Shown: positions 1-58,392 of the stretch, piece by piece
Layout: every line of letters starts with the position of its first letter
How positions within the stretch are numbered: the first letter of the stretch is position 1
Assembly (NCBI GenBank): GCA_017443345.1
Contig: JAFSNR010000063.1
Coordinates: 1-58,392, forward strand
Length of the DNA: 58,392 bases
Source: Prevotella sp.
GTDB lineage: Bacteria; Bacteroidota; Bacteroidia; Bacteroidales; Bacteroidaceae
Direction of reading: 5' to 3'
Translations under genes and position numbers: made by a program
The notes under the pieces: generated by a model
The model's input: only the letters and a program-made list of their open reading frames with translations
Database searches by the model: none
What the model was told of the DNA's origin: nothing

Positions 1-168
1 CTCAACAACGTCTTGGGTATAGACCGAGCCATGCTCTGAGATGTGCTTCGCAAGCTTGGTAGTGCTCAGTGTTTCGATACTTTTCAGTCGGGCGTACCAC
101 TTCCCGTACATCGCGGACTCACTGTCCTTGATGTCATTCTGGTAAACTTCGTAAAGAATTTTACTCAT
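1..168 (-). CDS. HU-family (HU-HIG) DNA-binding protein, 3' end beyond the window
   Basis: The 56 visible codons begin MSKILYEVYQNDIKDSE and continue through a YGKWYARLKSIETLSTTKLAKHI stretch, cut here by the left edge. The pattern of a short beta segment, then 'YGKWYAR' and 'LAKHISEHG', matches the N-terminus of Bacteroidetes HU-HIG proteins, which bend or bind DNA like HU/IHF. The homologous gene at the other end of the window shows the same landmarks (YGKYYPRV, MAKHMAEHN). The start is the ATG at 168-166, about 65 nt downstream of a good promoter box. It faces outward, away from the restriction island, as its counterpart does at the right edge. Family is fairly sure; role beyond DNA binding is unknown. 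Confidence 0.8.
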   Translation of the reverse strand, partial: MSKILYEVYQNDIKDSESAMYGKWYARLKSIETLSTTKLAKHISEHGSVYTQDVVE

Positions 169-238
169 GATGTTAGCTTATTAGGGTTACACTTAATCCA
201 GATCAGGACTTTCCTGCCTTTCATCATTTCTGACGCTA

Positions 239-246
239 CAAAGGTA
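239..246 (-). promoter_or_regulatory. Bacteroidetes -7 promoter box for the left HU gene
   Basis: TACCTTTG on the minus strand. The roughly 65-nt leader carries a small perfect hairpin (caggactttcctg, 204-216). The flanking sequence (gtacgaaaaatatt) resembles the DUF4248 promoter region at 57768-57785. Confidence 0.7.
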
Positions 247-345
247 CGAAAAATATTCGAGATAATCAAATTTATATTACTAAAATATGTTAATTAAATT
301 AGCCTATAATTCACGCTTTACAAACCGGTATTTTGCATATCCTTG

Positions 346-404
346 ACGAGATTACGGCTCGTTATCGACGAGATTACGGCTCATTTCAAACGAGATTACG
401 GCTC
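346..404. repeat. three direct repeats, 22-bp period
   Basis: The 15-mer acgagattacggctc occurs exactly three times, at 346, 368 and 390, a spacing of two helical turns. This suggests phased protein binding sites between the HU gene and the tag A hairpin. No coding sequence covers them. Only three copies with about 7-nt spacers, so not CRISPR-like. Confidence 0.85.
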
Positions 405-435
405 GTCGATTTGGAGATATTTCATCCATGAGAAA

Positions 436-620
436 AACGGAAAGTAGGAAATGCGGAAAGCGGACATTAAGCATTTTCAGAGTGCGGAAGAGAGACATTA
501 TAAGTAGAAGTTATTTTAAAAATCTTATTTTATTCTTATTAAATGACTATCCTATAATATCTCCTCCAGAATACCTTTATGTCCACTTTCCTACTTTCCT
601 ACTTTTCTACTTTCTTCCGT
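436..620. repeat. tag A inverted pair (hairpin-forming) at the outer end of accessory region A
   Basis: The left arm (437-466) reads cggaaagtagg...ggaaagcggacat. The right arm (579-620) is an imperfect inverted copy, gtccactttcc followed by ctactttcc-type units. Both arms are built from an 8-bp iteron, roughly ggaaagta. The 110-nt AT-rich middle holds a second partial copy of the left arm (agtgcggaagagagacatta, 481-500). The same tag recurs once at 10000-10028, right after the DUF3987 stop codon. With the two flanking repeats and the promoter block this accounts for the gene-free stretch 169-735. Confidence 0.8.
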
Positions 621-621
621 A

Positions 622-724
622 AAAGGCAATGGTGCATGAATGAGTTTTTATTAAATAATGTGTATTTTTCCAGTGTAAGATCATTATTCTCAAAAAAACT
701 TCGTATCTTTGCAGACTAACAATA
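622..724 (+). promoter_or_regulatory. promoter block 1 (also repeated at 1515-1616), before the kinase-domain gene
   Basis: Contains a -7 box TATCTTTG at 704-711. The whole block, from aaaggcaa through tttttattaaataatg to ttgcag-ctaaca, is about 75-80% identical by eye to 1515-1616, so two adjacent genes carry the same promoter. The box also shows that translation must start downstream, at 736. Confidence 0.75.
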
Positions 725-735
725 AGATTTCAATT

Positions 736-1515
736 ATGACCGACGATGATATATATGTTACCATAGCAGCAAATGGTTTTTCGGAAGGAACGCTGCAAAA
801 GATAGACGATTTAACAAACGATATACTATATGGAAGAAAAGATTTTAATGGATTTACTCTACCAGAGCATGCAGGACTCTGCAAGGGAGGCGCGCCTCTC
901 ATTGGGGCGTCCATCGTCGTCAGCTACGCGCGAAGAAGCCTTACGACAGGTAGCAATGTTGAAGGCAGCGAAGGAGGCAGCCCAGCCAATTGGCAAATAG
1001 ACGAAGAACAAGAACGCCTGCTTGAAGCGTGGGCCAGAGCAAAAGGTCTTTGGTTTGAAAACTCAGACAGCATCATCGAAAAGAACTTCGGCCCGATGAT
1101 TGCTCAAGGTGCAGAGGCCAAGGTGTATTATAAAGAAGGTGACCCTTCTGTAGCCAAAGAGCGTACATCCATCTACTCCACCACAAATAAAGCTTTGGAA
1201 GCTATTGCCCTGCACAACTATCTCTTTCCTGAGACAGCAATGAGGGTAATCGGCTTTACTCGCGACAGCGACAGTTTATTGCGCATTGTGCTAACACAGC
1301 CATACATTCGCTGCCAACGGCTTGCAACTAAAGAAGAGATTGACGCTATGGTGGCAGAAAAAGGGTTTCATGACAATTGGCAAGGACAAGGGGTAAACTA
1401 TATCTCAGAACGGTTAGCATTGGAGGATATGCATCCAGCAAACGTGTTCATTGACGAATTGACAAGTAAACCCACATGCATAGACTGCATAGTAAAATTC
1501 TTGATAGGTACATGA
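736..1515 (+). CDS. polyvalent-protein-type kinase-domain protein
   Basis: A 259-residue protein beginning MTDDDIYVTIAANGFSEG. The central part carries GQGAEAKVYYK, which reads as a glycine-rich loop plus the lysine-bearing strand of a kinase-like fold. It is followed by SVAKERTSIYST, ALEAIALHNYLFPET and a C-terminal EDMHPANVFID, which looks like a catalytic loop (HxxN) and metal-binding D. I recognise this as the 'putative polyvalent protein kinase' family found beside restriction genes and in mobile elements of Bacteroides. The ATG at 736 lies about 25 nt after the promoter box. Its promoter is duplicated before the next gene, so both may be co-regulated as one restriction locus. Kinase activity is inferred. 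Confidence 0.6.
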   Translation: MTDDDIYVTIAANGFSEGTLQKIDDLTNDILYGRKDFNGFTLPEHAGLCKGGAPLIGASIVVSYARRSLTTGSNVEGSEGGSPANWQIDEEQERLLEAWARAKGLWFENSDSIIEKNFGPMIAQGAEAKVYYKEGDPSVAKERTSIYSTTNKALEAIALHNYLFPETAMRVIGFTRDSDSLLRIVLTQPYIRCQRLATKEEIDAMVAEKGFHDNWQGQGVNYISERLALEDMHPANVFIDELTSKPTCIDCIVKFLIGT

Positions 1516-1633: not shown

Positions 1634-4600
1634 ATGCTACTACAGAAGAATATCGTCAAAAAGTATCTGAACTTGCTCGGTGAGGATCAGACAGTAAAGC
1701 CCTGGGAACAATACCGGCGGTTCTTTCTGAACGAGGATATACAGGCAAACATTCATAAAATCAAGGAAGAACAGTTTCAGGAAGGCTTCCTACGTGAACT
1801 GTTCGTCAAAGTGCTTGGTTACGCTATCAACCCTTCGCCCAACTATAATCTGACGACTGAACAGAAGAATGAAGTCGGGTCGAAGAAGGCCGATGGTGCC
1901 ATATTGATAAATGATGTGGTAATAGGTGTGATAGAACTGAAAGACCACAAGACTCCCGACTTGGCCAGTATCGAGCTTCAGGCCTTTGGATATAAGAGCA
2001 AACACAAAGAGACGCGACTGGTTATCATCAGCAATTTCGAGAAGTTGCGCCTATATATTGACAATGCCGTTGAGTTCCGTGAGTGGGACATCTTCCACAT
2101 GACGCTTGAAGAATTCCGCGAGTTGTACCTTTGTCTGGCATGGCAGCAAGTGGAGCAAGGTGTGGTGCTGCGGATGAAGCAGGAGTCGGTGTCGAACGAG
2201 GACCAGATTACAAAGGCACTCTATAAAGACTACTCGCAGTTCAAGCGGGTGCTCTTTGCCGATATCCTTGCCAACAACCCCGTGCAAGAAGGAAATGACG
2301 AAAAAGAGTGGCAATTGTTGCTGTTCAAGAAGACTCAGAAATTGCTCGACCGTCTGCTGTTCATCTTCTTCGCAGAAGACTGCTTCCTACTTCAGCCAAA
2401 TTCGATGGTACAGATTATCGATAAGTGGCAACAGCTGAAAGACTTGGATGCGTACGTGCCTCTCTATGATCGCATCAAGCAATATTTCGGTTATCTTGAC
2501 AAGGGTCATGTCGGAAAGCCGTTTGATGTCTATGCCTACAACGGTGGACTCTTCAAGCCCGACGAGGTACTCGACAATATCATTATCAGCGACGATATCT
2601 TAGCCGAGAATACTCGCCGACTTTCTGCTTACGACTTTGAAAGCGATGTAGACGTGAACATCCTGGGGCATATCTTTGAAAACTCGCTGTCTGAGATAGA
2701 AGAGGTGACTCAACAAATCAATAGTGGTAAGGGTACTCAAACCTCGAAACGTAAACAGGATGGTGTGTTCTACACCCCACAGTATATTACGAAATACATA
2801 GTGGAGAATACTGTCGGGCGACTCTGCGAAGAAAAGAAAAAGCAACTGAATATTGTTGAAGATGAGTACCTTTCTGATAAGCGTCGCCAGCTGCAAACGA
2901 AAAAGCGACTATTGGATCAGCTGCAGCAGTATCGTGAATGGTTGCTTCAGATTACGATCCTCGATCCTGCTTGTGGTAGTGGAGCCTTTCTGAATGCCGC
3001 ATTACAATTTCTGATCGCTGAGCACAAACTGATTTACGATTTGGAGAAGAAAGTCACAGGCTTTGAGATTCCTTTTGACAAGATAGAGAACAGTATTTTG
3101 GAGAACAACCTCTATGGTGTCGACATCAATGAAGAGAGTGTTGAAATAGCCCAGTTGGCACTTTGGCTACGTACTGCCAAACCACATCGCAAACTGAATT
3201 CTCTGAACGAGAACATCAAGTGTGGCAACTCGCTTATCAGTGACCCCGCCATTGCCGGCGACAAAGCCTTCGACTGGCAGAAGGAGTTCCCCAAGGTATT
3301 CGAACGTGGAGGCTTCGATGTGGTGATTGGCAATCCGCCTTATGTTCAACTTCAGAGTTTGGGTGCCATGAGTGATACATATGCTCAATGTGGTTTTGAA
3401 ACATATAACAAGAGTGGTGACTTGTATTGCTTGTTCACCGAGCAAGGTTATAATTTGTTGAAGCCAGGTGGAATGCAGTCGTTCATTATGCCCAACAAGT
3501 GGATGCTTGTTTCCTATGGTAAAGAGCTACGACGCTTTATGGCCAAGACCAACCTACAGCAGATTATCAACTTCGGTGATGTGCAATTCTTTGACGAAGC
3601 TACCATATATGTATGCATTTTCGTAACACAAAAGTCTAACGAAAAAGGTACGGAGGTGCAAGCGCTGTCTCTGAACCAGAAGACCTATCATGGCGACTTT
3701 CTCCATGAAGTGTCGGAACAATTGTCTGCTTATCCATCAGAGACCTTTAGCGAATCCGAGTGGATTATTCAGCCCAAAGCTCACTTTGATATTCTGAAGA
3801 AGATGCAGCAAGGCACAGCCCTGAAAGACATGCCGATTTCCATATATAGAGGAATATTGACTGGCTACAATGACGCTTTCTTTATTGATAGAGAAACCCG
3901 TGAGCGATTGATAGCCGAAGACCCGAAAAGCGCAGAACTTATCAAGCCGCTGCTTCGAGGCAGGGATATAATGGCATGGGAGGCTCGTTGGGATGAATTG
4001 TATTTGATAAATACCCATAATGGCATCAAGGACTCTGTCCTCCCAATCAATATTGATGAGTATCCCATTATCAAGAAACATCTGGATAAATTTTTCGAGA
4101 AGTTGTCAAAGAGACAGGATAAGGGAATCACCCCATATAATTTAAGGAATTGCGATTACTATCAAGAGTTCTCCAAGCCCAAGATTATGTATCCCAACAT
4201 GACCTCGTTGTTCCCCTTTATCTATGACGAGAAAGGCTTCTTCGGCAACGACAAGACCTTTATGATAACGGCTCAAGATGATACTGTCAACTTGAAGTTT
4301 ATTACTGCCGTCTTAAACTCAAAGTTGTGTAAGTTATGGATATGGTATAACTGCCCTGAACTGCAAGGTGGAACTCGTGAGATCCGTAAGGTCTATTTTG
4401 AGAATTTCCGAATTCCTATTGACACTAATCAGCAACCTTTCGTTACCCTCGCCGGCACGATGCTTTCACTACATCAGCAGTTGCAAGAGAAACGAGCCCG
4501 TTTCCTTCGTCGCCTGACTGATAACTTTGAGGACGTGAAGATTACGACAGCCTTGCAGCAGTTTGATCAGCTGGACTTCAAGGGACTGATGGCAGAGCTG

Positions 4601-4786
4601 AAGAAACAGAAGATCCGCATACCTGTCAAAGAGCAGGACGAATGGGAAGACTTCTTCAATGAGCGTGTGGCAGAATGCCAGGAACTCTCAGCGCAGATAA
4701 AAGCTACAGACGAAGAAATAGACAATCGCGTCTTCGACCTCTACGGACTGACTGAGGAAGAGCGCAGAATAGTGATGGAGGCATAA
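1634..4786 (+). CDS. type IIG (Eco57I-like) restriction-modification enzyme
   Basis: A 1050-residue single-chain enzyme that should both cut and methylate DNA at one site. Near the N-terminus a PD-(D/E)xK-type nuclease is visible: KKADGAIL (D87) then GVIELK (E101, K103). A helical connector follows. The N6-adenine methyltransferase core has motif I, DPACGSGAF, near residue 442 and motif IV, NPPY, near 566. The C-terminal third has TaqI-like specificity features (YPNMTSLFPF, LNSKLCKLWIWYNCP) and ends in coiled-coil sequence. Length and domain order fit the type IIG/Eco57I family. It has its own promoter copy, and a 434-residue gene follows after 18 nt, probably in the same transcript. Confidence 0.92.
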   Translation: MLLQKNIVKKYLNLLGEDQTVKPWEQYRRFFLNEDIQANIHKIKEEQFQEGFLRELFVKVLGYAINPSPNYNLTTEQKNEVGSKKADGAILINDVVIGVIELKDHKTPDLASIELQAFGYKSKHKETRLVIISNFEKLRLYIDNAVEFREWDIFHMTLEEFRELYLCLAWQQVEQGVVLRMKQESVSNEDQITKALYKDYSQFKRVLFADILANNPVQEGNDEKEWQLLLFKKTQKLLDRLLFIFFAEDCFLLQPNSMVQIIDKWQQLKDLDAYVPLYDRIKQYFGYLDKGHVGKPFDVYAYNGGLFKPDEVLDNIIISDDILAENTRRLSAYDFESDVDVNILGHIFENSLSEIEEVTQQINSGKGTQTSKRKQDGVFYTPQYITKYIVENTVGRLCEEKKKQLNIVEDEYLSDKRRQLQTKKRLLDQLQQYREWLLQITILDPACGSGAFLNAALQFLIAEHKLIYDLEKKVTGFEIPFDKIENSILENNLYGVDINEESVEIAQLALWLRTAKPHRKLNSLNENIKCGNSLISDPAIAGDKAFDWQKEFPKVFERGGFDVVIGNPPYVQLQSLGAMSDTYAQCGFETYNKSGDLYCLFTEQGYNLLKPGGMQSFIMPNKWMLVSYGKELRRFMAKTNLQQIINFGDVQFFDEATIYVCIFVTQKSNEKGTEVQALSLNQKTYHGDFLHEVSEQLSAYPSETFSESEWIIQPKAHFDILKKMQQGTALKDMPISIYRGILTGYNDAFFIDRETRERLIAEDPKSAELIKPLLRGRDIMAWEARWDELYLINTHNGIKDSVLPINIDEYPIIKKHLDKFFEKLSKRQDKGITPYNLRNCDYYQEFSKPKIMYPNMTSLFPFIYDEKGFFGNDKTFMITAQDDTVNLKFITAVLNSKLCKLWIWYNCPELQGGTREIRKVYFENFRIPIDTNQQPFVTLAGTMLSLHQQLQEKRARFLRRLTDNFEDVKITTALQQFDQLDFKGLMAELKKQKIRIPVKEQDEWEDFFNERVAECQELSAQIKATDEEIDNRVFDLYGLTEEERRIVMEA

Positions 4787-4804: not shown

Positions 4805-6109
4805 ATGAAAGTTGTATTATCTCCTCTGGAATGTGATGTAACAGAAGAACCTTCCATTTTCTGTATAGGTCGATTAATGGAGGGAACAAATTGGTATTCA
4901 TATGGCATTTGCAAGTGGGCGAATGGTTTGCAAGGAGCAATTATAGACTTCAATGATGCAACAGACGATGTGGACGCAGGAGGGAAGTCGTTAATTCATA
5001 CTGATGACGGGCGTGATTTTCTGTGTTTTGTAAGCAGTGACATTGATTTGGTTCGAGAGTCTGAGAATGTTTTTGGATTGACTGAGTTGAGTCGAAGATG
5101 TCCTTTGGTGGCCTGTGGCATTATTGCACGCTTTGTGAAAATTGACATCACGAAAAGGAATTATCCCGCCATGTTTGAGGCGTATTATGAAATGGAAAAG
5201 AAATTCTATGTTTTAGAACATCAACAACGAGACCCTTTTTCATTTAGCAAAAACCTTGAAGATGACTTTGTCAATGGTGCCCATTTGCGTATAGAAAGTA
5301 AAAGTATTGAATTCTCAACAGAAAATCTATTTCCCTTTCTGAAGGAGCATGACAGGTGTACTGTCAAGAGAATGGCTGAAGCCTACATAGCGTTTGTTAA
5401 GAGTAAAGAAATGAAAAAATCAAATCCAGAGGAAGAAATCCCCAAGAGTGAAATACGCGAAGAGTTGAATGCAATGAAGCACGAGATGAAGCGTCTACGT
5501 GAGTCTGTATCTCTACGCCCGCATCAAGAGGCAAGAAGAAAATTCTGGCAGGACTATAACAATGGTCTTTACCGAAACATGCAAAAACACGAAGAAACTC
5601 CCTCTTCACAGCCATCTTCTCAGGAAAACAATAATGAGGATGCACATAGTCAAATCACAGATATAACTTGGGAGGTAAAGAAAGAGTGTTTCAAGTATGC
5701 TGTGTTATATGTAATGACTTTGGAAAAGAAGACGGGTGGATACCTGTTCCATACAAATACGCATTGGATAGCCATTTATCGTTTTGCTGTTAATATTTTG
5801 ATTATGCATGAATTTGCCCCCTTGGAATTGCCAAAGGACAATGATAAAGCGCAATATAACAAATTTGCAGAATTTGCCAAAGAATTAAGTCTTGACGTTT
5901 CTCCTCATACCCGTTTGCCTTTCAAGCTTAGTTCTATTAATAGTTTGAGTAAGAAAAACTACAACAAGTATCTCGCGCCCCCACCATGGCCGACAAAAGA
6001 TTTAAAAGGGAAGGGCTTGTCATTATGTAAAGAAATGAATGCCATTTATATTGCACTTAATAATAAATACATCGCTTTAATTCAACAAGCTTCCCAAACA
6101 AATATCTAA
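4805..6109 (+). CDS. hypothetical protein, partner of the type IIG enzyme
   Basis: A 434-residue protein I do not recognise. Residues 1 to about 200 are mixed alpha/beta (MKVVLSPLECDVTEEPSIFC). A charged, probably coiled-coil segment follows (EIREELNAMKHEMKRLRESV, about 215-240), then a low-complexity Q/E/N/S linker (about 257-285). The C-terminal helical domain includes YLFHTNTHWIAIYRFAVNILIM and ends near KYIALIQQASQTNI. No catalytic motif is obvious. It lies 18 nt after the restriction gene and is followed by a terminator, so the two probably form one unit. Its base composition is lower in GC than the core genes. An accessory or control role is a guess from position only. Confidence 0.75.
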   Translation: MKVVLSPLECDVTEEPSIFCIGRLMEGTNWYSYGICKWANGLQGAIIDFNDATDDVDAGGKSLIHTDDGRDFLCFVSSDIDLVRESENVFGLTELSRRCPLVACGIIARFVKIDITKRNYPAMFEAYYEMEKKFYVLEHQQRDPFSFSKNLEDDFVNGAHLRIESKSIEFSTENLFPFLKEHDRCTVKRMAEAYIAFVKSKEMKKSNPEEEIPKSEIREELNAMKHEMKRLRESVSLRPHQEARRKFWQDYNNGLYRNMQKHEETPSSQPSSQENNNEDAHSQITDITWEVKKECFKYAVLYVMTLEKKTGGYLFHTNTHWIAIYRFAVNILIMHEFAPLELPKDNDKAQYNKFAEFAKELSLDVSPHTRLPFKLSSINSLSKKNYNKYLAPPPWPTKDLKGKGLSLCKEMNAIYIALNNKYIALIQQASQTNI

Positions 6110-6893: not shown

Positions 6894-7409
6894 ATGGATA
6901 AGACAGATAAGAAAAAGACGAAAATCAAGGTTCGCGGCACGGGTTGTTACGACCTTGAAACCAACAAGTTTGGATTTGAGCCTTTCAACGAAGGCCCTTC
7001 TACCCAAACTGACGTAAAGAACTGCCTTGGTGGCGGCAAAAGCTGGATAACGACAGGCACAGACCCATCACGTATGGTCAGCCTGAAGTGCAAGGCTTCG
7101 TCAGCCGACCCATACAGCGACCTCGTGACTCAGTTTAACCAGTTGACAAAAGACCTGAAACCCCAAAAGCCAGTAACGCTTCCTGACAATCTGCGCGTGG
7201 TAAAGGAGAACGGTCTGGAGTGCTGGCTCGATGAACAGAAGCAGGAGATGACCTTCACAGGCCGTATCGACTTAGGCAAGCATCATCGCGACTGGCAAGC
7301 CGAGGTTTTGCGTCAGGTTCAGCTGGTGGTACGCCGTCTTCCGGCAAGCGACAAGTTTAACAAATTAATCAACAACATTAAGAAATCAGGAGGACAAAAC
7401 CATGTTTAG
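6894..7409 (+). CDS. primase-operon conserved hypothetical protein, intact copy
   Basis: A 171-residue protein of unknown function. The N-terminal half includes KIKVRGTGCYDLETNKFGF and ITTGTDPSRMVSLK. The C-terminal half includes NGLECWLDEQKQEMTFTGRI and VLRQVQLVVRRLP. Both halves align with two consecutive reading frames in operon B (41699-42178), where an in-frame stop splits the gene. It is therefore a conserved member of this kind of primase operon. Its stop codon overlaps the next gene's start (ATGTTTAG), so translation is probably coupled. It may assist the BT4734-type protein, by position only. Confidence 0.75.
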   Translation: MDKTDKKKTKIKVRGTGCYDLETNKFGFEPFNEGPSTQTDVKNCLGGGKSWITTGTDPSRMVSLKCKASSADPYSDLVTQFNQLTKDLKPQKPVTLPDNLRVVKENGLECWLDEQKQEMTFTGRIDLGKHHRDWQAEVLRQVQLVVRRLPASDKFNKLINNIKKSGGQNHV

Positions 7410-8028: not shown

Positions 8029-8035
8029 TACGATT

Positions 8036-48992: not shown

Positions 48993-49003
48993 ATTTACCT
49001 ATT

Positions 49004-49276: not shown

Positions 49277-49279
49277 CGG

Positions 49280-49491: not shown

Positions 49492-49558
49492 AGCACACGG
49501 GGACTGTCCCTGCTGTGAGTAGCAAAGCGGATTACAGAGGGACTGTCCCCTGTGTGCT
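49492..49558 (-). terminator. long inverted repeat after mod, REP-like
   Basis: agcacacggggactgtccc and gggactgtcccctgtgtgct form an imperfect inverted repeat around about 25 nt. Directly follows the mod stop. There is no T-run, so it may stabilise the 3' end or be a REP-type repeat rather than a true terminator. Confidence 0.55.
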
Positions 49559-49560
49559 AA

Positions 49561-51550
49561 TCAAATCACTCTTACGTTATTCTTCACTTCCTGCTCTGTC
49601 CAGTTGCACTTCTGCTTAAACAGCTCGAAGAGATTCATCTTCTGTGCAGCCTCTTCGAAGCTGCTGTCTCTGAAGACAATCTTAGCAGGATACATATCAG
49701 CAATGGCATCAATGACTTTTTCTGTGATGATTCCATCAAAGCAAGCCACGAGGCCTCCTTCGTTCACATTATGAATTGTGCAGCCATCCACCTTCGTCTT
49801 TGTCATCGGCAAGTCAAGGGTAATACCCCAACGCAGCATACAATCAAAGAGTAAATCAAGGTCTGAGCGGTCTTCCTTGATGTTATCCACAAACATATCT
49901 AACTCTTCTTGCTGGTAGTCCTTCGGTGCAAAAGCAACATTCTTATAATTGCTCTCATCGCACTTGAATACACGGAAGCCAATATCCAGAGGTTTCTGCT
50001 CCCCATTGAACAAGTCCCCCTGCTTGGCCTTCTGCTCCTCTAAGATTTTCTTTCCAGCACGGCGGATACGCTCCTTGCCGATTTCGCAGATATTCTTATA
50101 ACCAGCTTTGTAAGCTTCGCTATCTTCATCCGTTTCTTCTGGCCATTGAACCATGATGAACTTATTATACCTTTTTTTATTAGCATTATTTAGAATAACT
50201 GCATGAGCTGTTGTTGCTGAGCCAGAGAAGAAATCCATTACTATATCTTTATCTTCAACGTAAAATGAACACAAATAGGACATTAATGATACAGGTTTTG
50301 GATAATCAAAATAATTTCCGAGTTCTCCCATGTCAGAAGTTGCTTTTTGTGTGCCTCCCATATTGTTCAGAACTGATATAACATGGCTTGCATTTCCTCT
50401 CTTCTTGATTGCCTCAATTGCTCCATTCTTTGTCATTACAAAAGTTGTAGCCTGCCCCTTTGTGTCAAAAACCTCCTTGAAGCCATTGTCTATAAATTCC
50501 ATAAGTTGTGCTCTAGAAGCCCACCCTGTGGTTGCAACAACTTCATTTTTTGTCTGATAGTTTTCTATTGTAATAGAATCACTATATCGAGGCCAAACGA
50601 CATTAGATTTATCAATGCAACATTCTGATACGTCAGACGGAAAACCTTGGGGTATTACTACATTCTCAATAGGATTCTTTATACCATTTTTTATTATTGT
50701 ATTTCTGATTTCTTCTTTGAATATCTTGCTTGTTTTGGGGATGTTTGGATCAATAGCTTCCGGAAGGTCAATAAAATCTTCATTTTTTGCATATAACAGA
50801 ATGTACTCATGGCAACTCTTAATTCGCGCTTGATTGTCAAAATTGCCGTCGGTTCTCCAACAGAAACAGGCCAATTGGTTGTCAGCACCAAACACCTCTG
50901 AAGTTATTTTCTTTAGGTTATCAATTTCCTTATCATTTATAGAAATGAAAATTACGCCATCCTCTGTAAGTAAACTTCTCGCCACCAACAACCTAGAATA
51001 AATCATCGAGCACCAATCAGAATGGAACTTACCATTACTCTCGGTGTTCTTAACCATTCGCTCACCTTCCTCATTGATAACGCCAGCAGCCTCATCCTCT
51101 TCACGCTGAGTGCGGTGGAAGTCATCATGATACACGAAATCATTACCCGTATTATAGGGAGGGTCGATGTAAATCATTTTCACCTTTCCCATATACGAGT
51201 TCTGCAGCAGCTTCAACACTTCAAGGTTATCCCCCTCAATATAGAGGTTCTGCGTGGTATCCCAATTAACACTCTCTTCAGGACAAGGGCGTAACGTCTT
51301 GCGGATGGGTGCCATTGCCTCGCGCTGAGCAGCGCGTTTTCCTACCCAAGTAAAATCGTATACTTCCGGCTCGTCGTCCGCTACGTTATCACCTAACAGT
51401 TCACGTAGTTTTCCCCAGTTAACGACTTGTTTTAAAGTACCCCCCCCCACTGATATCAGGAGCCTCTGTAAAGCAAGAGGGGAATAGTTGGTAGAGCGCA
51501 GCCAGATTCTGCTGTGCACCATCAATGGTCTCTTTGTTTAAATGTTTCAT
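49561..51550 (-). CDS. type III DNA adenine methyltransferase Mod, out of frame at a G9 tract
   Basis: The natural start is the ATG at 51550: MKHLNKETIDGAQQNLAALY, then QLFPSCFTEAPDISGGG. A run of nine G (51440-51448 on this strand) shifts the frame, giving a stop after 43 codons (51421-51419). With eight G the frame joins TLKQVVNWGKLRELLGD and continues to the end, 662 residues. The body is a beta-class N6-adenine methyltransferase with motif IV YIDPPYNTGNDFVYHDDF and motif I VMDFFSGSATTAHAV, plus a central target-recognition region that is AT-richer than the rest. Mod gives site specificity to the Res subunit. The tract makes phase-variable expression likely. Confidence 0.88.
51440..51448. 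repeat. homopolymer tract (nine C on plus, nine G in mod)
   Basis: Lies after codon 34 of mod, between DIS and the conserved KQVVNWGKL block. A slippage-prone simple repeat at the place where such tracts switch type III mod genes in other bacteria. Confidence 0.9.
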
Positions 51551-51562
51551 TTCTTAGTTATT

Positions 51563-52936
51563 TTATTTTTCTAAATTCTCAATAAATTTGTCGAAGTCCG
51601 AGAGTACTGTTTTATCTTGTATTCTCCAGAACTTCTCATATTCGCCCAAGGCCTTAGCCTCTGCCTCCTCATGAGTAACAGAGCCTGCATCGGGTAGAAT
51701 GTCTCGTTCCTGAAACTTCAGATAGCTTTCCAAAAGCGACTTCCAGTCTGCCATCTTCATGATGAGGTGGCGACGTGCCCGGTCTTCTGCCGTATCAATA
51801 AAGGCGGTAGTCAGGAGGTTGAGGCTGTCCACCTCCTGTTCTGACAGATAGTTCTTGGCAATAGTCACATCACTCTTGATGATACGGCCATCTGGTGCAT
51901 TCTTCCACGTCATCAGACCCATGTGAGGTTTCTCGGCATTGGCACGATCATAGATGATCTCTGCTGCTGTCTGATGAGTTACGGCATAGTGCATCATGTT
52001 CTGAACGGTCTTATAGAATACCTTAGTGATGTCACTCTTGGGGTCATAGTCGCTGCTGCATTCGGCATAGATGTCCGTAATCTTCTGATAGTAACGTCGC
52101 TCTGAGAGGCGTATCTCACGGATGCGATCAAGCAGCTCCTCAAAGTAATCTGCGCCGAAGGGATTCTTACCCTTCAGCCGCTCATCGTCCATCACAAACC
52201 CCTTGATGATAAACTCCTTCAGCACACCTCGCGCCCAGATGCGAAACTGCGTGGCCTCGTAGCTGTTGACACGATTACCAACAGCAATGATAGCATCGAG
52301 ATTATACATCATAACGCCCTGCTCGTCGCAATTGTCCGACGGAATTAAAATTTTTTTAATTGCTTCGGACAATTGCACTTCACCACTCTCATTGAGTTGC
52401 TTCAAATGGTAAGTAATATCAGGAATTGTCACGGCAAACAGGTCCGCCATCCGCTTTTGCGACAGCCAAAATGTCTCATTGCTGAAGAGTACAGAAACAT
52501 TTACCTTGCCTGTACTTGAGCGATAAATAAGTACGTTGCCCTCTACACTGGTTGCCAGTTCCTTTGAGGTCATCTTGCTTGTAAAGTACTCTTTGGCAGC
52601 CTTGACGATAGGCTTTTTCTTATCAGCATTCGTAGCAATGGCTATACAGGCAGTCCTGGATAGCATGATCGATTTTACCTGGCGCCATCCACCATTGTTC
52701 AGCTGCGCCATCTCCTCTATCTCCACCATGTGCTCCTTTAGGTCCAGTCCTTTTTCTTGCTGCAAGAATGTTGCTACCTTATCCATTAGCCGTTCAAAGT
52801 TCCAGTACTTCAGATAGCCCATGAGTTGTGCCAGCTTACGCGAGTTCCACCACTCACGTCCTTCAGCATCCGTCTCTTTGATGGCTTCAAAGGGTGACTG
52901 CATCTCCTCGGGTGTAAACATTTCTATCTCGTCCAT
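51563..52936 (-). CDS. DinD-like N-terminal domain fused to RhuM-family protein
   Basis: A 457-residue protein. Residues about 25-125 resemble DinD/Bro-type proteins: EWWNSRKLAQLMGYLKYWNF, then GGWRQVKSIMLSRTACIAIA and KPIVKAAKEYFTSK. From about 135 on it is RhuM-like: NETFWLSQKRMADLFAVTIP, MMYNLDAIIAVGNRVNSYEA, TQFRIWARGVLKEFIIKGFV and the long helical end with KMADWKSLLESYLKF. RhuM proteins recur in restriction and pathogenicity islands, without established biochemistry. Its start overlaps the DUF4391 stop (TAATG) and mod follows after 12 nt, so it is an integral part of the operon. Confidence 0.85.
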   Translation of the reverse strand: MDEIEMFTPEEMQSPFEAIKETDAEGREWWNSRKLAQLMGYLKYWNFERLMDKVATFLQQEKGLDLKEHMVEIEEMAQLNNGGWRQVKSIMLSRTACIAIATNADKKKPIVKAAKEYFTSKMTSKELATSVEGNVLIYRSSTGKVNVSVLFSNETFWLSQKRMADLFAVTIPDITYHLKQLNESGEVQLSEAIKKILIPSDNCDEQGVMMYNLDAIIAVGNRVNSYEATQFRIWARGVLKEFIIKGFVMDDERLKGKNPFGADYFEELLDRIREIRLSERRYYQKITDIYAECSSDYDPKSDITKVFYKTVQNMMHYAVTHQTAAEIIYDRANAEKPHMGLMTWKNAPDGRIIKSDVTIAKNYLSEQEVDSLNLLTTAFIDTAEDRARRHLIMKMADWKSLLESYLKFQERDILPDAGSVTHEEAEAKALGEYEKFWRIQDKTVLSDFDKFIENLEK

Positions 52937-53619
52937 TATTTCATTTTTTCTAATTCTTCTTTCAATTGCTGCAATGCTTTGCGGGCCCGAACTACTTGAG
53001 CATGAAGTTCCAGCTGGATGTTGGCCTGTCGCTCATTGCGCATTTTCTTTTCGAGTTTCAGGAATTCCTTCTCCTCCTTTTCGATTCGTTGTTGAAGGGC
53101 TACGATTTCTTCCATCTTACCAGCCTTATGCTCGCCGATGCCAGAAATCTGAGCCACAAAGTTATCATAGATGCGTGAAAGAGATTGTCCTTCTATCTCC
53201 AGCTTTAGGTTTGATGTAGGCACCCAAGGCGAAGCGAACATCTGGGTAATCTTAAACTCTGTATGAGTATCGTCTTTCCATTGCTTGTAATTCACCAACA
53301 GCATACTGTTGTCGCCATGCTGCAGGATAAACACAATGTGGTGAGGCATGTGGGTATCAATGAAGGTAAAGAGGTCTGTGAGGCTGTCTGCCTGTTTCAG
53401 CGTAGCCACAAACACCTCTATCTCCAGCATTTCCTCACTATTTGTAACATTAAGCGTCTGGGCAGAGAGTTTATATAGCCAATCGATGCGGGTAACATCT
53501 TCCACAAAACGCTTCTTCATTTTGGGATTGACATCCATAAAGCGATAAAACATCGTCTTGGGCACTGTGCGGTCTACGATGCAGGAGTCCGGGTAATGCA
53601 GTATGTTATTCAAGATCAC
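52936..53619 (-). CDS. DUF4391-family protein
   Basis: A 227-residue protein: YPDSCIVDRTVPKTMFYRFM, DVTRIDWLYKLSAQTLNVTN, EIEVFVATLKQADSLTDLFT and PHHIVFILQHGDNSMLLVNY make up the DUF4391 core. The C-terminal 60 residues are a charged coiled coil (LQQRIEKEEKEFLKLEKKMR). Members are found next to SNF2-type helicases and type III mod/res genes, as here, and are presumed parts of that defence complex. Overlaps the helicase gene by 14 bases. Confidence 0.85.
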   Translation of the reverse strand: MILNNILHYPDSCIVDRTVPKTMFYRFMDVNPKMKKRFVEDVTRIDWLYKLSAQTLNVTNSEEMLEIEVFVATLKQADSLTDLFTFIDTHMPHHIVFILQHGDNSMLLVNYKQWKDDTHTEFKITQMFASPWVPTSNLKLEIEGQSLSRIYDNFVAQISGIGEHKAGKMEEIVALQQRIEKEEKEFLKLEKKMRNERQANIQLELHAQVVRARKALQQLKEELEKMK

Positions 53620-56600
53620 CTCCTTCTTTAATTATCAGGAAACAGATGAGTTCGAAATCATCCAAGCCCCGGATATCATGCACCAGCGCGGAGGTTTCGC
53701 CAACAAAAAACAGGCTCTCCAAATCACGCTCCTCCTTCTGCTCTACGATGGTTGCAACTGCATCTCCTAAGAGTTTGCTGTAGTGCTGCATCTTGCGTCC
53801 ATTTGACGTCTCGCGGTTCACCTGGCGGCAGAGCTCACTGATAGGCTCCGTCTTACCTTTACATGTCATACGCATGATGTCGAGCAGTTTCTTGGGTGCA
53901 AGATGATTGATATAGGTATCGCCTTCATCTGACAAATACACCATATAGAAGGGGTGCAGCAGATTCAGATGATCGATATTGATGGCGTTATTACGGTTCT
54001 TTAGGATAAATATCACACCTGGCCTGGCCTTTCCTGTAGCTGGTACCACGGCATTCATTCCCCATGGAGTATGCTCGATATCGGGATTATCCTTCATATA
54101 GGCCAACAGGTCAAGCCGGAACTCATTCAGACCTAAGTCCATGATGTTGATACCCGTATCCATATCTTCGAGGTCTATCACCTCTTCCTGCAGGCGCTGC
54201 AGCTGACTCTTACGATAATCAAGATCTGCCTGCTCTTCATCAGACAGCAGCACATTGCTATTACCAGCGCCTGTGATGTTCACACCAGTCATACGAGCTT
54301 CAACACGGCCTTTCAAACGCAGGTAATCATCAAGTTCGATATCGGGCCAATAGTTCACAAGCTGTATCACGTCATTACGAGAACCGATACGATCCACACG
54401 TCCGAAACGCTGGATGATACGCACAGGATTCCAATGGATATCATAGTTGATAAGATAATCGCAATCTTGCAGGTTCTGACCTTCTGAGATACAGTCTGTC
54501 GCAATCAGCACATCGATATACTGCTGTTGTGTAGGCATCAGTTTGTCAGCCTCCTTGGATATTGGAGAGAAGAGTGTCAGAATACTGTTGAAATCTGCTT
54601 TCATTCCAGGAATAGTAGAGGCAAGGGCATCACCAGTTACAAGTCCTGTTTGCAATCCTGTCTTATCCTTGATAGCAGGTGCCAGATTATCATAGAGATA
54701 TTCAGCGGTATCAGAGAAAGCCGTAAAGATGATTATTTTCTTGTTGTCGCCATTGATGGGATGAGCAAATTTATCACGGAGATTCTCAATGAGCATCTGA
54801 AGCTTGCTATCATGCTCAGGGGTTATATCCTTTAGCATTATGAGTAGCAGCCTGATAATCTCATGATCTGCCGTGATGTCACGTTTCCAGCTACGGCAGT
54901 CCATATCAGCCAGAGCTACACGGGTCTTCTTACCACCTATCAGGAAATCATTCTCGCTGTCCTCGCCATCAAGCATCCCTTCCAAGGTCTGTGTGGAGAT
55001 ACGAACATCCTGACGTGTTTCCATGAAGGTGTTGATGGCACTGAGGGTTTCGTCCATCTGCTCCTTCATACGCTCCAGTGTGAGACGGAAAGAGTTGACA
55101 CTTGACTCCAGACGTTTCAGCAGATTAATAGCCATCAGTTTTTTCAGTCCTTTCTCACGGCCTGACATTCCGAGGTTATAGCCACTGCCGTCCTTATCGA
55201 TTTCATATTTATGACGCTTGGAAGCCAGAATATAGGCTGATGGAGCATAGACGCCAAGATTCAGACCATCCAACTGTTCTGATATATCTTTATAGGTTAT
55301 AGCATCATTAAGATCTGTGAGATGAGGACGCTTTGATATAGGACGTAGACGAGTTGGGAATTTGCCGATATCTGCAGTATCGTAGAAGTTCTCAATATGC
55401 TTACGGCTACGGGCAATCGTAACTGCATCGAGCAACTGGAAGAAATCGAAACTCAACATTTCCAGCAGTCTGTCTGCCGTGCGCTCCTTCGGGTCGGCAA
55501 TCTTTGCCCAGGCATTATACTGTGCCTGTGCTGCTTTGAAGATGTCCTCAATAGGACGGTCCATTGCCAACTTGTCATTGATTAGATCCTGATCTCCTTC
55601 GTAGGCCAGCTGCAACTGGTTCTTCAAATCATTGAAGCGATTGTTCACTGGCGTTGCTGAGAGCATCAGCACTTTTGTTTTTACACCTGCACGAATCACC
55701 TTGTTCATCAGACGAAGATAGCGGTTCTCACGAGGGTTCTCGTCTTCTTCGTCTGTTGTTACCTTGCCGCCATTTCGGAAGTTGTGGCTCTCATCGATTA
55801 CTATCAGGTCGTAATTACCCCAGTTCAGCAGGGCAAGGTCTATGCCATTGCTTATTCCGTGATCTCGCGACAAGTCGGTATGGAAAAGAACATCGTAACG
55901 CAGGCGGTCTTTGTCCAAGGGGTTGTTCTTATAGTTGCTCTTATATGTCTGCCAGTTCGCATAAAGCTTCTTGGGACAGAGCACAAGGACACTCTTATTA
56001 CGGTTCTCGTAATACTTAATCACGCTCAGGGCCGTAAAAGTCTTACCCAAACCCACGGAGTCGGCAAGGATACATCCATTGTAGGTCTCGAGCTTATTGA
56101 TAATAGCAAGAGCCGCATCTTTCTGGAAGTTATATAGTTTATTCCATATCTGCGAGGACTTAAAACCTGTGGCTTCGTTGGGCAATACATCTTCAGAGAT
56201 ATCCTCCAGGAATTCGTTGAAGATGTTGTAGAGGGTGACGAAATAGATAAAATCAGGGGCATTCTCACGATAGACGTTCTCAATATTCTCGATGATGGCA
56301 TCGGTGACATCAACGGATTTTTCCTTGTCTTCCCAAAAATCATTGAAGTTTCGCAGATACTGATCACTGAAAGGCGATGGCAATCGCTGGATCAGCTGGA
56401 AAATATTATTTCCACGCTCACAGCCCAGTTCAGTGGTGGTAAACTCATTGATGGGCATATAGGTGAAAAGGGAGCCGTTCGTCCTTGCATTGAGGAATCC
56501 AGGCATCTGCATCTGTGAGACATTGGTCTTAAAGCGCACCTTCTGGCGAATCCACTCTGCACATTCCTTAGCAATGGCTTTCTGGGTCAGATTATTGCGC

Positions 56601-56881
56601 AATTTGATTTCGAAGTCAGAGCCATAAAGGGTCCTTTCGCGATTCAACTTGGGGATATAGAACTCACGCTTCTGTTTTTTCTCGCGTTCTTTGTTGAATG
56701 TCGGGGAAGTGAAGATAAAACGCAGTTCCTCTATCTGTTCCAGCTCTTTCTGCAAGGCTTCGAAGGCATAGATAGAGAATGAGGCTGCTGCCATTGACAC
56801 CTTTGAGCCGTCCCCTAGCACGACCTTCAAGTCATCAATGAGCCTCGACGTTATATTGTCGAATGTTGCAAATCCGTCCAT
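53606..56881 (-). CDS. SNF2-family helicase with N-terminal PLD-like domain
   Basis: A 1091-residue protein from the ATG at 56881. The first 130 residues look phospholipase-D-like (SMAAASFSIYAFEALQKELE, LRFIFTSPTFN), but no full HKD motif is evident. The helicase core has Walker A ILADSVGLGKTFTALSVI, motif II LIVIDESHNFRN, motif III LMLSATPVNNRF and the C-terminal RecA block ATDCISEGQNLQDCDYLINY with RIIQRFGRVDRIGS. The C-terminal domain is family-specific. Likely a DNA translocase working with the DUF4391 and Mod/Res proteins against foreign DNA. First large gene of the leftward island. Confidence 0.9.
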   Translation of the reverse strand: MDGFATFDNITSRLIDDLKVVLGDGSKVSMAAASFSIYAFEALQKELEQIEELRFIFTSPTFNKEREKKQKREFYIPKLNRERTLYGSDFEIKLRNNLTQKAIAKECAEWIRQKVRFKTNVSQMQMPGFLNARTNGSLFTYMPINEFTTTELGCERGNNIFQLIQRLPSPFSDQYLRNFNDFWEDKEKSVDVTDAIIENIENVYRENAPDFIYFVTLYNIFNEFLEDISEDVLPNEATGFKSSQIWNKLYNFQKDAALAIINKLETYNGCILADSVGLGKTFTALSVIKYYENRNKSVLVLCPKKLYANWQTYKSNYKNNPLDKDRLRYDVLFHTDLSRDHGISNGIDLALLNWGNYDLIVIDESHNFRNGGKVTTDEEDENPRENRYLRLMNKVIRAGVKTKVLMLSATPVNNRFNDLKNQLQLAYEGDQDLINDKLAMDRPIEDIFKAAQAQYNAWAKIADPKERTADRLLEMLSFDFFQLLDAVTIARSRKHIENFYDTADIGKFPTRLRPISKRPHLTDLNDAITYKDISEQLDGLNLGVYAPSAYILASKRHKYEIDKDGSGYNLGMSGREKGLKKLMAINLLKRLESSVNSFRLTLERMKEQMDETLSAINTFMETRQDVRISTQTLEGMLDGEDSENDFLIGGKKTRVALADMDCRSWKRDITADHEIIRLLLIMLKDITPEHDSKLQMLIENLRDKFAHPINGDNKKIIIFTAFSDTAEYLYDNLAPAIKDKTGLQTGLVTGDALASTIPGMKADFNSILTLFSPISKEADKLMPTQQQYIDVLIATDCISEGQNLQDCDYLINYDIHWNPVRIIQRFGRVDRIGSRNDVIQLVNYWPDIELDDYLRLKGRVEARMTGVNITGAGNSNVLLSDEEQADLDYRKSQLQRLQEEVIDLEDMDTGINIMDLGLNEFRLDLLAYMKDNPDIEHTPWGMNAVVPATGKARPGVIFILKNRNNAINIDHLNLLHPFYMVYLSDEGDTYINHLAPKKLLDIMRMTCKGKTEPISELCRQVNRETSNGRKMQHYSKLLGDAVATIVEQKEERDLESLFFVGETSALVHDIRGLDDFELICFLIIKEGGDLE

Positions 56882-56883
56882 TT

Positions 56884-56919
56884 TCAATCCTGCTCTATGT
56901 TGAATAGTCGTGTAGCCAT
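56884..56919 (-). CDS. possible 11-codon leader peptide
   Basis: ATGGCTACACGACTATTCAA reads MATRLFNIEQD and stops three bases before the helicase ATG. It is placed between promoter and start, so translation of the helicase may depend on it. Could be chance. Confidence 0.3.
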   Translation of the reverse strand: MATRLFNIEQD

Positions 56920-56939
56920 ATTTATTTGTTTTCAGCCTA

Positions 56940-56947
56940 CAAAGATA
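56940..56947 (-). promoter_or_regulatory. -7 promoter box of the type III island operon
   Basis: TATCTTTG followed by taggctg on the minus strand, about 60 nt before the helicase start. Confidence 0.8.
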
Positions 56948-57009
56948 AGGGTTTTTATCGAAGATACAAAATTTATGGCTGGAAATTTGATTATTTGCTC
57001 GGAATGTGC

Positions 57010-57174
57010 TACCTTTGCAGCCGTCAAAAGGTTAATTTATTGATTTAGGCTAGCTGCAGTGATGCACCATCCAGCCTATCATTTTTGAGATGTGCTATTT
57101 AGCACATGATCCTGAAAACAATAATTTAATGGTATTTATTAGGGCTTGCAGTGATTGCACGTCCTAATTTTTTT
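57010..57174 (+). ncRNA. candidate small RNA of about 150 nt with own promoter and terminator
   Basis: -7 box TACCTTTG at 57010-57017. Three hairpins follow: taggct/agccta (57046-57078), a perfect atgtgcta/tagcacat (57090-57107) and ttaggg...cctaa (57139-57167) ending in seven T. The first and last loops share gcagtgat-gcac. No credible open frame lies inside. It diverges from the helicase operon and ends about 30 nt before the tag B pair. Confidence 0.65.
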
Positions 57175-57202
57175 ATAATGTGAATAAAGCAACGATCTTG
57201 GC

Positions 57203-57397
57203 GATGTTGGCATCTTGGCATGTTGGGTTTTTTGTGAAAAACAATGTATTAGATAGAAAGTAGAAGTATTCAAATATTAATTAGATTATAATATAATTAT
57301 AATTATATTATAATCTATGGACTTTATAGAAATATTTTGTAACCAATAAAAAAACAAAATACCCAACAACCCAACATCCCAACATTGCCAACATTCT
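57203..57397. repeat. tag B inverted pair around a 36-bp palindrome
   Basis: The inner arm (57203-57234) reads gatgttggcatcttggcatg, then ttgggttttttg. The outer arm (57354-57397) is the inverse type, acaaaatacccaacaaccca then acatcccaacattgccaaca. The units are 8-9 bp iterons (ccaacat). Between the arms, 57282-57317 is a perfect 36-bp AT palindrome. The single inner copy of this tag is at 39283-39316. The whole could extrude a cruciform or serve as an origin. Confidence 0.85.
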
Positions 57398-57462
57398 GTC
57401 TTAAAAGCGTTGTTTGCTATACTCTAACTGACTGATACTCAGTATATCTGACTGTATTATAA

Positions 57463-57526
57463 TAAGCGTCGCTTATCGAGTGACAAGCGACGCTTAATCA
57501 GAAATAAGATAGTCTTATTTCCTGAG
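57463..57526. other. two adjacent hairpins after the DUF4248 gene
   Basis: taagcgtcgctt/aagcgacgctta, 12 perfect pairs (57463-57496), and aaataaga/tcttattt (57502-57520). They probably terminate or stabilise the leftward DUF4248 mRNA. There is no clear T-run. Confidence 0.55.
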
Positions 57527-57538
57527 AAGACCTCTCTA

Positions 57539-57739
57539 CTACGGTTCGCCCAGCTCTTGGTAAATAAGCTGTACCTCTGCGGGCGTGAACGTGCGGCGCG
57601 TGAGGTCATACAGATGACGCAGATTAGGATTGACGATCAGCCATTCTTTGAACTTCCTCCAAGCGGACATGGCTGATAGCCTGGGGAAGTACTGTTGGGC
57701 GAGTTCGCTGCGCCCGAAAGTTCTTGATGCTTTTTCCAT
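57539..57739 (-). CDS. DUF4248-family protein
   Basis: 66 residues: MEKASRTFGRSELAQQYFPR, then SAWRKFKEWLIVNPNLRHLY and FTPAEVQLIYQELGEP. The pattern FGRSELA..YFP, AWR.FK.W and FTP..V..I...LGEP is the DUF4248 signature; the fold is probably helical and DNA- or partner-binding. The ATG at 57739 is chosen because a promoter box lies just upstream at 57768; longer in-frame versions would run through it. DUF4248 genes typically sit divergent to HU-HIG genes near DUF3987 loci in Bacteroides, as here. Confidence 0.88.
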   Translation of the reverse strand: MEKASRTFGRSELAQQYFPRLSAMSAWRKFKEWLIVNPNLRHLYDLTRRTFTPAEVQLIYQELGEP

Positions 57740-57767
57740 TATTATACCTTTATTAATTAAACTACTG

Positions 57768-57775
57768 CAAAGGTA
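57768..57775 (-). promoter_or_regulatory. -7 promoter box of DUF4248
   Basis: TACCTTTG followed by cagtagttt on the minus strand, 28 nt before the ATG. Confidence 0.8.
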
Positions 57776-57861
57776 CGAAAAATATTTCATATTTCCAAAG
57801 AAATATCTTGCAAAAATTAGCAATAAGTTGCAGAAACTTGTAAAGGCCATTTTTTATTTCG

Positions 57862-57869
57862 TACCTTTG
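57862..57869 (+). promoter_or_regulatory. -7 promoter box of the right HU gene
   Basis: TACCTTTG, divergent from the DUF4248 promoter 86 bp away. The intervening sequence is AT-rich. Confidence 0.8.
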
Positions 57870-58063
57870 CACTTGTAAAGGAGATACAAGTGCGAGAAAA
57901 GGCTGCGGCTCAGCATAGCAAACAAGTTTGACTCTGCGTTCGCCTTGCACTTTCCTTGTAGCGTCAAAAGGAAACAAAGGCAGTGCGCAGGCTGGAGTGG
58001 AATGTAGACACAGAGAATTTAATTAACAACTTATTATCAACTTTTTAAACAAAATTAAAGACA
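57870..58063 (+). promoter_or_regulatory. long structured 5' leader of the right HU gene
   Basis: About 190 nt without a gene. It opens with a perfect hairpin cacttgta/tacaagtg (57870-57892). A second stem pairs gcactttcctt with aaggaaa...gtgc (about 57949-57986). An AT-rich unstructured stretch precedes the ATG. It could control HU translation or host a short RNA. Confidence 0.55.
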
Positions 58064-58392
58064 ATGATTGAACTGTATCTTTCAAAAAACCAGAATGAGG
58101 GTCTGGCAGCCTATGGCAAGTATTACCCTCGCGTGAGCTACAAGCAGACGCTCAACATTCACGACATGGCCAAGCACATGGCTGAGCACAACACCCCGTT
58201 CTCCGAGGGAACCATCGAGGGTATCCTGCGAGACTTCGTGAAGTGTACCCGTGAGCAGACCCTGATGGGTAACACCGTAAAGGTTGACGACCTGGCCATC
58301 TTCAAGGTGAGCGTGATCGGTAACGGATGCATTAAGCTCTACGATCCCGACACTGACAAGACCATCTCTGCCAGCATCGGTACCATCGGCAA
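58064..58392 (+). CDS. HU-family (HU-HIG) DNA-binding protein, 3' end beyond the window
   Basis: 109 visible codons: MIELYLSKNQNEGLAAYGKY, YPRVSYKQTLNIHDMAKHMA and EHNTPFSEGTIEGILRDFVK, then a beta region (KVDDLAIFKVSVIGNG). This is the two-helix-plus-beta-arm plan of HU/IHF, in the Bacteroidetes HU-HIG variant. It faces outward from the island. The left-edge HU gene is its mirror counterpart, with a similar YGK(W/Y)Y core but clearly diverged sequence. Likely a nucleoid or element architectural protein. Confidence 0.85.
   Translation, partial: MIELYLSKNQNEGLAAYGKYYPRVSYKQTLNIHDMAKHMAEHNTPFSEGTIEGILRDFVKCTREQTLMGNTVKVDDLAIFKVSVIGNGCIKLYDPDTDKTISASIGTIG

Follow-up and report, generated by a model that had tools for sequence, protein, structure and literature searches.

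Candidate iteron origins and predicted partner primase-helicases in two inward-facing islands of a Prevotella contig

The contig JAFSNR010000063.1 of Prevotella sp. (GenBank assembly GCA_017443345.1), one contig of a 204-contig genome of 4.16 Mb, carries an accessory island at each of its ends; its whole length of 58,392 nucleotides is referred to here as the window. Island A runs from position 1 to about 10,040 and island B from about 38,740 to 58,392, with about 29 kb of chromosome-type genes between them, and the two islands face inward. In both, an HU-HIG gene pointing outward comes first, followed by two inverted iteron sets (tag1 and tag2) that enclose an AT-rich spacer, then by cargo genes, an inward primase-helicase and a third tag (tag3) at the stop codon of that gene. 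An earlier note on this DNA had described two mirror-image islands of this plan, and from the window coordinates we could locate all of its parts in both. The two HU-HIG genes are interrupted by the contig ends and the outer ends of the islands lie beyond the contig. The features of island A are as follows.

1–168, minus strand: HU-HIG DNA-binding gene, outward, interrupted by the contig end (Pfam E 6e-4 over 56 aa, under the curated cut-off)
436–471, plus strand: tag1, left half of the predicted origin, GGAAAGTA-like 8-mers ending GGACAT
472–573, no strand: AT-rich spacer of the predicted origin, about 102 bases, 73% AT
574–612, minus strand: tag2, inverted iteron set, right half of the predicted origin
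709–1515, plus strand: cargo, Kinase-PolyVal family protein
1634–4786, plus strand: cargo, type IIG restriction enzyme-methyltransferase
4805–6109, plus strand: cargo, 434-aa protein, no family found
7402–8028, plus strand: BT4734-like archaeo-eukaryotic primase (AEP), a separate open reading frame (ORF) (PF08800 E 2.5e-5)
8006–9997, plus strand: AAA+ helicase with C-terminal winged helix, predicted initiator (no Pfam family; aligned with the island B protein and relatives)
9999–10034, plus strand: tag3, half-origin iteron set, 2 bases past the helicase stop, direct repeat of tag1

Island B has the same plan in the opposite orientation, with primase and helicase fused.

38741–39244, minus strand: M15 peptidase, endolysin-like, beyond tag3 (PF08291 E 2e-13; PHROG endolysin E 9e-28)
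39286–39317, minus strand: tag3, half-origin iteron set directly at the stop codon
39318–41750, minus strand: primase-helicase fusion of BT4734-like primase, MCM/Cch-like AAA+ and predicted winged helix (about residues 750–810)
43409–43753, minus strand: KilAC-domain anti-repressor-like protein (PF03374 E 6e-11)
45721–48771, minus strand: cargo, type III restriction enzyme
49561–51525, minus strand: cargo, type III methyltransferase
51563–52936, minus strand: cargo, RhuM-family protein, PADLOC candidate PDC-S05
52936–53619, minus strand: cargo, DUF4391 protein
53606–56887, minus strand: cargo, SNF2 helicase, best PADLOC match HKD+Snf2
57193–57234, plus strand: tag2, GATGTTGG-like 8-mers, inverted relative to tag1
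57235–57347, no strand: AT-rich spacer of the predicted origin, about 113 bases, about 85% AT
57348–57394, minus strand: tag1, iteron set, outer half of the predicted origin
57539–57850, minus strand: DUF4248 protein (PF14053 E 2.6e-14)
58064–58392, plus strand: HU-HIG gene, outward, interrupted by the contig end (PF18291 E 3.9e-9)

The AT-rich gap inside the inverted pair, already reported in the earlier note, is borne out by these measurements, as is a third tag no more than two bases from the stop in either island; in island A the helicase stop occupies 9995–9997 and similarity to the tag begins at 9999–10000 on the plus strand. The tags had also been described as private to their own locus. 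This stands for tag A, of which a 28-nt pattern has, at up to three mismatches, three sites in the genome, all of them in island A, and it nearly stands for tag B, of which a 17-nt pattern has seven genomic matches at up to one mismatch, five on the three window sites and two that are single matches on other contigs of the same genome; the reversed control gave none in either case. DUF4248 and M15 genes, which the note had placed with such primases, are present in island B, and neither was found in island A. Adjoining the outer side of tag1 in island A, at 345–406, is a 22-bp tandem repeat, GACGAGATTACGGCTCGTTTCA, a motif that occurs also behind the DUF3987-type primase gene of contig C36 of the same genome, beside an HU-like gene.

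The DUF3987 label given earlier to the window primases has to be replaced. Both proteins exceed the curated cut-off of PF08800, the BT4734-like N-terminal family (24.9 and 24.1 bits against 22.4), and a search of the genome with PF13148 (DUF3987) matched two other loci and neither window gene. Segments GLVMCDFDH and TPGGEGLK align across the relatives and were compared, by alignment only, with the AEP motifs hhhDhD and sxH-like, while the family profile gave the primase part weak support from solved phage primases (E 0.0065), which we take to be those of NrS-1. When the island B protein was modelled with AlphaFold (mean pLDDT 86, pTM 0.57, 76 sequences), the C-terminal winged helix was predicted at about residues 750–810. 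Foldseek searches with this model placed MCM subunits at the top and Cch of the staphylococcal cassette chromosome mec (SCCmec) at ranks 13 (E 0.0065) and 16, with TM-scores over the island B query that are low, at 0.26 or less.

That the two islands belong to a class of loci, as the earlier note had supposed, is borne out by their recurrence among related primases. A scan of GTDB species genomes yielded at least 80 related loci, by title mostly from Prevotella, Xylanibacter and uncultured Prevotellaceae, Bacteroidaceae and Bacteroidales; many of these genomes are metagenome-assembled and some contigs break near tags. With 17 more loci from the window, its own genome and relatives, and two from a viral collection, the total came to 99 proteins, and 92 were kept after the removal of four duplicates, two truncated proteins and one near-identical one. 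Repeat arrays at the stop codon, defined as a tandem repeat score of at least 10 within 45 bp past the stop, follow 55 of the 92 related primases and 115 of 1128 other ORFs of these loci, called mechanically with a minimum length of 200 aa. The commonest best period is 8 bp (39/55), and the repeats are highly diverse in sequence, for example TTACTCAC, CGTGCCAA, GCGCACCA, TGCGGCA and GGAAAGTA. Whether tags are absent from other primase loci has a divided answer: the window's own family is often tagged, 37 of the 92 relatives lack a stop array, and the plan was not seen at nine other-family primase genes of the same genome, some of which have short inverted or upstream repeats (two further other-family genes stand outside that count). 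Three other-family primases, L101 (C136), L102 (C198) and L103 (C77), are flanked on both sides by short inverted repeats, perhaps another origin layout, and in those of C195, C175 and C140a repeat arrays precede the gene start. Among the open-access papers listed in our literature searches, none described this plan in its title or abstract opening, subscription papers being outside the scope of the search.

The inverted pair also recurs when it is sought without knowledge of the tags. We scanned blindly for inverted repeats 100–290 apart with a centre of at least 62% AT, a threshold that makes the AT richness of the pairs partly a product of construction. Upstream of 77 related primases (613 kb) there were iteron-type pairs in at least 19 loci, a lower bound because most loci were covered only to 10 kb upstream; 439 kb of other regions contained three. 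This control region was not wholly neutral: of its three pairs, that of L237 was a known orphan and that of L242 lies in a locus chosen for a tag match, and L241 contains a further tag-type pair under the repeat threshold. The stop-array and blind-pair controls were used in place of a random-window control, whose windows could overlap tags so that its high tail was not a clean null. Palindromes resembling repetitive extragenic palindromic (REP) elements of the GGTTACATGG type in P. communis also satisfied the criteria of the scan and were excluded by visual inspection; pairs of the GGTTACATGGTTACAGCTGTAACC type, 114–121 bp apart, lie in G233 near 199765, 459977, 491704, 860778 and 944390. Blind and tag-guided searches together place the pair in 32 loci, with a spacing of 129–195 in 28 of them, and at 18 of the 32 the stop-codon tag matches the pair. 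Across 21 loci (the 18 matched ones with C170, G233c and L161), tag3 is closer to tag1 in eight and to tag2 in eleven, with two ties, so tag3 does not simply duplicate the outer tag. Among the 21, a locus's own tag3 ranks first or second for its pair with two exceptions, L161 (fifth) and G233c (eighth); that of C170 ranks first, but at a score of only 11.5. At L183, L194 and L206, which have no tag3, the pair fits the winged helix by eye.

Our findings support the view that tag sequence follows the C-terminal winged helix rather than the helicase. Among 55 loci with a self-repeat score of at least 10, in a comparison not based on a tree, tag similarity correlates with winged-helix identity once the helicase is removed (partial r 0.423, reached by none of 2000 permutations, whose maximum was 0.15), and the corresponding value for the helicase with the winged helix removed is -0.099. 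Such covariation between tags and primase sequence, foreseen in the earlier note, is thus present in the window's own family. A natural domain swap points the same way. In P. communis E15-14 (NZ_CP091794.1), elements c and d have helicases identical at 392 of 400 positions and unrelated tags, and their winged helices agree at 34 of 58 positions and their aligned N-terminal parts at 88 of 313; L187 likewise combines a c-type winged helix with c-type iterons, and L190 and L208 combine the two d-type parts (by eye). The earlier proposal that each primase recognises its own tag therefore gains support, since the tag appears to track the winged helix and the swap alters both. At a finer scale, in the G233b-like clade with TTA-type iterons, arginine in the recognition helix accompanies TTAC in 13 of 13 cases and lysine accompanies TTAT in 5 of 5 (Fisher 1.2e-4, uncorrected for relatedness, with 18 of 37 motif-caught proteins scorable).

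Chimeric loci and solo candidate origins show, at the level of sequence, that modules have been exchanged. Two islands, C170 of the window's genome and element c from P. communis, have the full plan plus a lysin, with a pair that differs from tag3 and from the winged helix, and L161 is chimeric too, its pair fitting the tag of L192. In tandem to element b is a second unit of HU gene and pair with a VapBC-like toxin-antitoxin (named by eye). One solo pair, in the window's own genome (C195:36,401–36,680; L095:11401–11680), has CGCTCCAA iterons and an AT-rich centre, lies between pyrD-like and large secretion-like genes (named by eye) and has no HU or primase gene recognised close by. Another, at 1,709,222 in P. 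communis (L237:14180–14480), has iterons like the tag of element b 43 kb away, with a RAYT-like gene nearby (named by eye) and no HU or primase gene recognised near it. The pair scan over about 1.41 of the 3.55 Mb of P. communis, a portion partly picked for islands, returned 16 pairs, by eye six of iteron type, five REP-like palindromes and five others.

The surroundings of the pair are recurrent as well. All five HU genes found in this portion of P. communis, with three seeds that could miss divergent ones, start about 210–290 bp from an iteron pair, and the distance in island A is about 265 bp. Families were tallied for 43 of 47 proteins outside the pair (21 loci), 60 of 60 downstream of the stop (82 loci) and 86 of 96 in the cargo (25 loci), taking the best 25 families for each. 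Outside the pair 12 of the 43 are HU-HIG. Downstream of the stop 21 of the 60 are M15 peptidases, and 28, the reference counted, share 43% identity or more with the RGIRNNNPLNIRR protein of element a, which has no Pfam family and is presumably lysozyme-like; genes of host type, for example RsfS and SuhB (identified by eye), lie past the lysin. The description of the cargo as defence genes fits both window islands, but other islands carry lipoprotein-like, anti-repressor, endolysin, toxin-antitoxin-like or Cas9-like genes: among the 86 cargo proteins anti-repressors are commonest (6), and there are also endolysins, SSB, restriction enzymes and one Cas9-like protein. At L120:8781–11230 two tandem HU-HIG genes share a leader motif around TAGTGCACGAGGAAGTT, possibly a conserved 5' untranslated element. 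Between the window islands, an exact 42-bp direct repeat (13899–13940 and 16083–16124) is found upstream of genes for a TonB receptor and a formyltransferase and is perhaps a shared promoter region. The P. intermedia repeat PINSR, as part of its source describes it (PMC4755523), was considered as a match and rejected, there being no terminal inverted repeats.

Taking the architecture, its recurrence, the covariation and the module swaps as they stand in the sequences, and setting them beside published systems, we infer that the islands are probably chromosomally integrated replicon modules or derivatives of these, the pair being an origin like that of the phage-inducible chromosomal islands (PICIs) and the island's own primase-helicase its initiator. 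The inverted tag pair and its AT-rich centre would form a replication origin, two iteron sets around a melting region, and the initiator would be the BT4734-type primase joined to the MCM/Cch-like AAA+ helicase. Its C-terminal winged helix would bind the 8-bp iterons of its own island in preference to those of other islands, helicase loading would melt the spacer, the primase would then prime synthesis, and the cargo between origin and initiator would be copied along. The stop-codon tag may be an extra half-origin tied to the coding end of the winged helix, with titration or handcuffing of the initiator, as copy control in the manner of the iteron plasmids P1 and F, the likeliest role and half-site recombination ranked second. 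HU-HIG beside the pair may provide an origin-bending protein. Several observations weigh against this interpretation. Of the loci with a pair, three (C170, G233c, L161) have a clear iteron array of another sequence at the stop and two (L130, L139, both over the repeat threshold) have an AT-rich stop repeat unrelated to the pair, so that 5 of the 23 arrays are mismatched; nine of the 32 have no array, L142 (spacing 104, 3.0 kb from the stop) being the least canonical of them. To these are added the 37 relatives under the array threshold, the solo pairs without a close primase, the AT richness partly built into the scan, and a distance of 3–18 kb from pair to initiator stop that is unlike PICIs. 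Five proteins with arginine in the recognition helix (L157, L172, L173, L186, L205) lie beside TATTCAA-type units, in which T occupies the corresponding place, which means that the arginine/lysine rule is no universal code. The plasmid collection contained no relatives and the phage collection one partial match; viral scans with single proteins gave no confirmed relative and an alignment query found two viral loci.

The earlier note had left replication and recombination at the tags side by side, and of these replication is favoured because the inverted pair fits a published origin design. Were the tags recombination sites, tag1 and tag3 as direct repeats could release a circle of cargo and primase, with the primase acting as a transposition or cassette-exchange factor, and in that circle the primase gene would be followed at once by tag, spacer and tag, an arrangement like that of PICIs. 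In both window islands, as in the 16 remaining matched loci, the three tags are oriented as this would require, chimeric and tandem islands show exchange of modules, and contigs end at or near tags in G262:C32, G141:C31, G141:C61, G038:C24 and G294:C6. Yet tag3 shows no preference for tag1 over tag2 in its sequence, the chimeras could be explained by homologous recombination inside near-identical helicase genes, and no integrase or transposase family was among the scanned island ORFs of the window; we regard such recombination as unlikely, no junction, circle or scar having been found. All six lysozyme genes found in P. communis follow a primase-type gene (two of other family, by eye), hence no empty scar of HU, tag and lysozyme was seen there, nor was one seen in the parts viewed of 11 of 30 loci in a lysozyme search of ten genomes, where L285, L288 and L302 have a lysozyme without a primase recognised within the 1.5 kb viewed. 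Pfam revealed no integrase among 23 island ORFs, the outer ends lying past the contig, and terminase and capsid-redirection genes were absent from those 23 (Pfam), from ten proteins compared with PHROGs and from the best 25 families of the relatives. Partial tests found no episome, circle or empty site. The SuhB flank of element d had a match in 26 of 100 genomes (the query's included), with the lysozyme in the query alone and the left neighbour in none, relatives that are too distant; the radical-SAM flank of G369 had one in 11 of 60 relatives (the query included), the others 42–48% identical and too distant for an empty-site verdict.

Two further explanations dispense with present-day replication. 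Binding of the tags by the primase or its winged helix might simply control expression of the cargo or of the primase, which would suit the covariation with the winged helix and the layout of island A, where tag2 precedes the first cargo gene by about 100 bp; it would leave the inverted pair, its near-constant spacer, the stop-codon tag and the motor and primase domains unexplained, and we think it very improbable. The islands may instead be decaying relics of once-mobile satellites, now fixed and functionless, with iterons kept by descent. The mismatched or missing arrays, the solo pairs and the very few viral and lacking plasmid relatives could be read in this way, but long open primase genes and matching combinations of winged helix and iteron across many species suggest continued selection, and we hold this explanation, too, to be unlikely. 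Beyond the preferred reading of the islands as integrated replicon modules lies a doubtful extension, in which they would be a large Bacteroidota class of integrase-free islands using their own origin as the site of mobility: the stop half-origin would recombine with the outer half to free a circle with a PICI-type origin, solo origins would be replicated or mobilised in trans, and specificity would move as one cassette, given the genetic linkage of winged helix and half-origin.

Primase, HU-HIG and lysin genes commonly cluster in Bacteroidales, and we know of no role assigned to such clusters. If the pairs are origins, many of these loci may be interpreted as integrated replicons in which the partnership of initiator and origin can be predicted, and the defence cargo would be the gene load of satellite-like elements. 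The family offers dozens of natural combinations of winged helix and iteron on similar helicases, and these might allow a DNA-recognition code to be deduced. In the iteron plasmids P1 (incA) and F (incC), further control iterons lie downstream of the initiator gene besides those of the origin, as the extra set does here, but their initiators are unrelated, their iterons are longer and they are episomal.

The closest parallels are with PICIs and the Staphylococcus aureus pathogenicity islands (SaPIs), as parts of two papers describe them. The PICI origin has two iteron sets around an AT-rich melting region (PMC6092414), and the C-terminal domain of SaPI Rep reads iterons downstream of its own gene (PMC7581432); paired iteron sets, AT-rich region, primase and helicase, accessory cargo, the AEP-type primase of SaPIbov1 and SaPI5 and the iteron-binding C-terminal domain of Rep are all points of likeness. 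In PICIs the origin is immediately 3' of rep, whereas here the pair lies 3–18 kb upstream beyond the cargo and a half-set alone is 3'; the window islands also differ in HU-HIG flanks, Bacteroidota host and BT4734-type primase, and integrase and terminase were not found in our scans. SCCmec Cch is among the nearest solved folds to our model after MCM, and the C-terminal domain of Cch2 binds putative origin repeats just downstream of its gene, although its operon uses CCPol-MP and three direct-repeat iterons and its element carries a recombinase gene (from the same portion of PMC7581432). ORF904 of pRN1 likewise joins an AEP primase, a helicase and a C-terminal winged helix with an origin just 3' of the gene, an origin that part of PMC4234260 describes as a 100-nt stem-loop with no iterons. 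The BT4734-like AEP family, to which the N-terminal domain of the window proteins belongs by its match to PF08800, is in the relevant part of PMC5862659 not tied to any clade; the word 'iteron' is absent from that text, whereas the window loci carry iterons.

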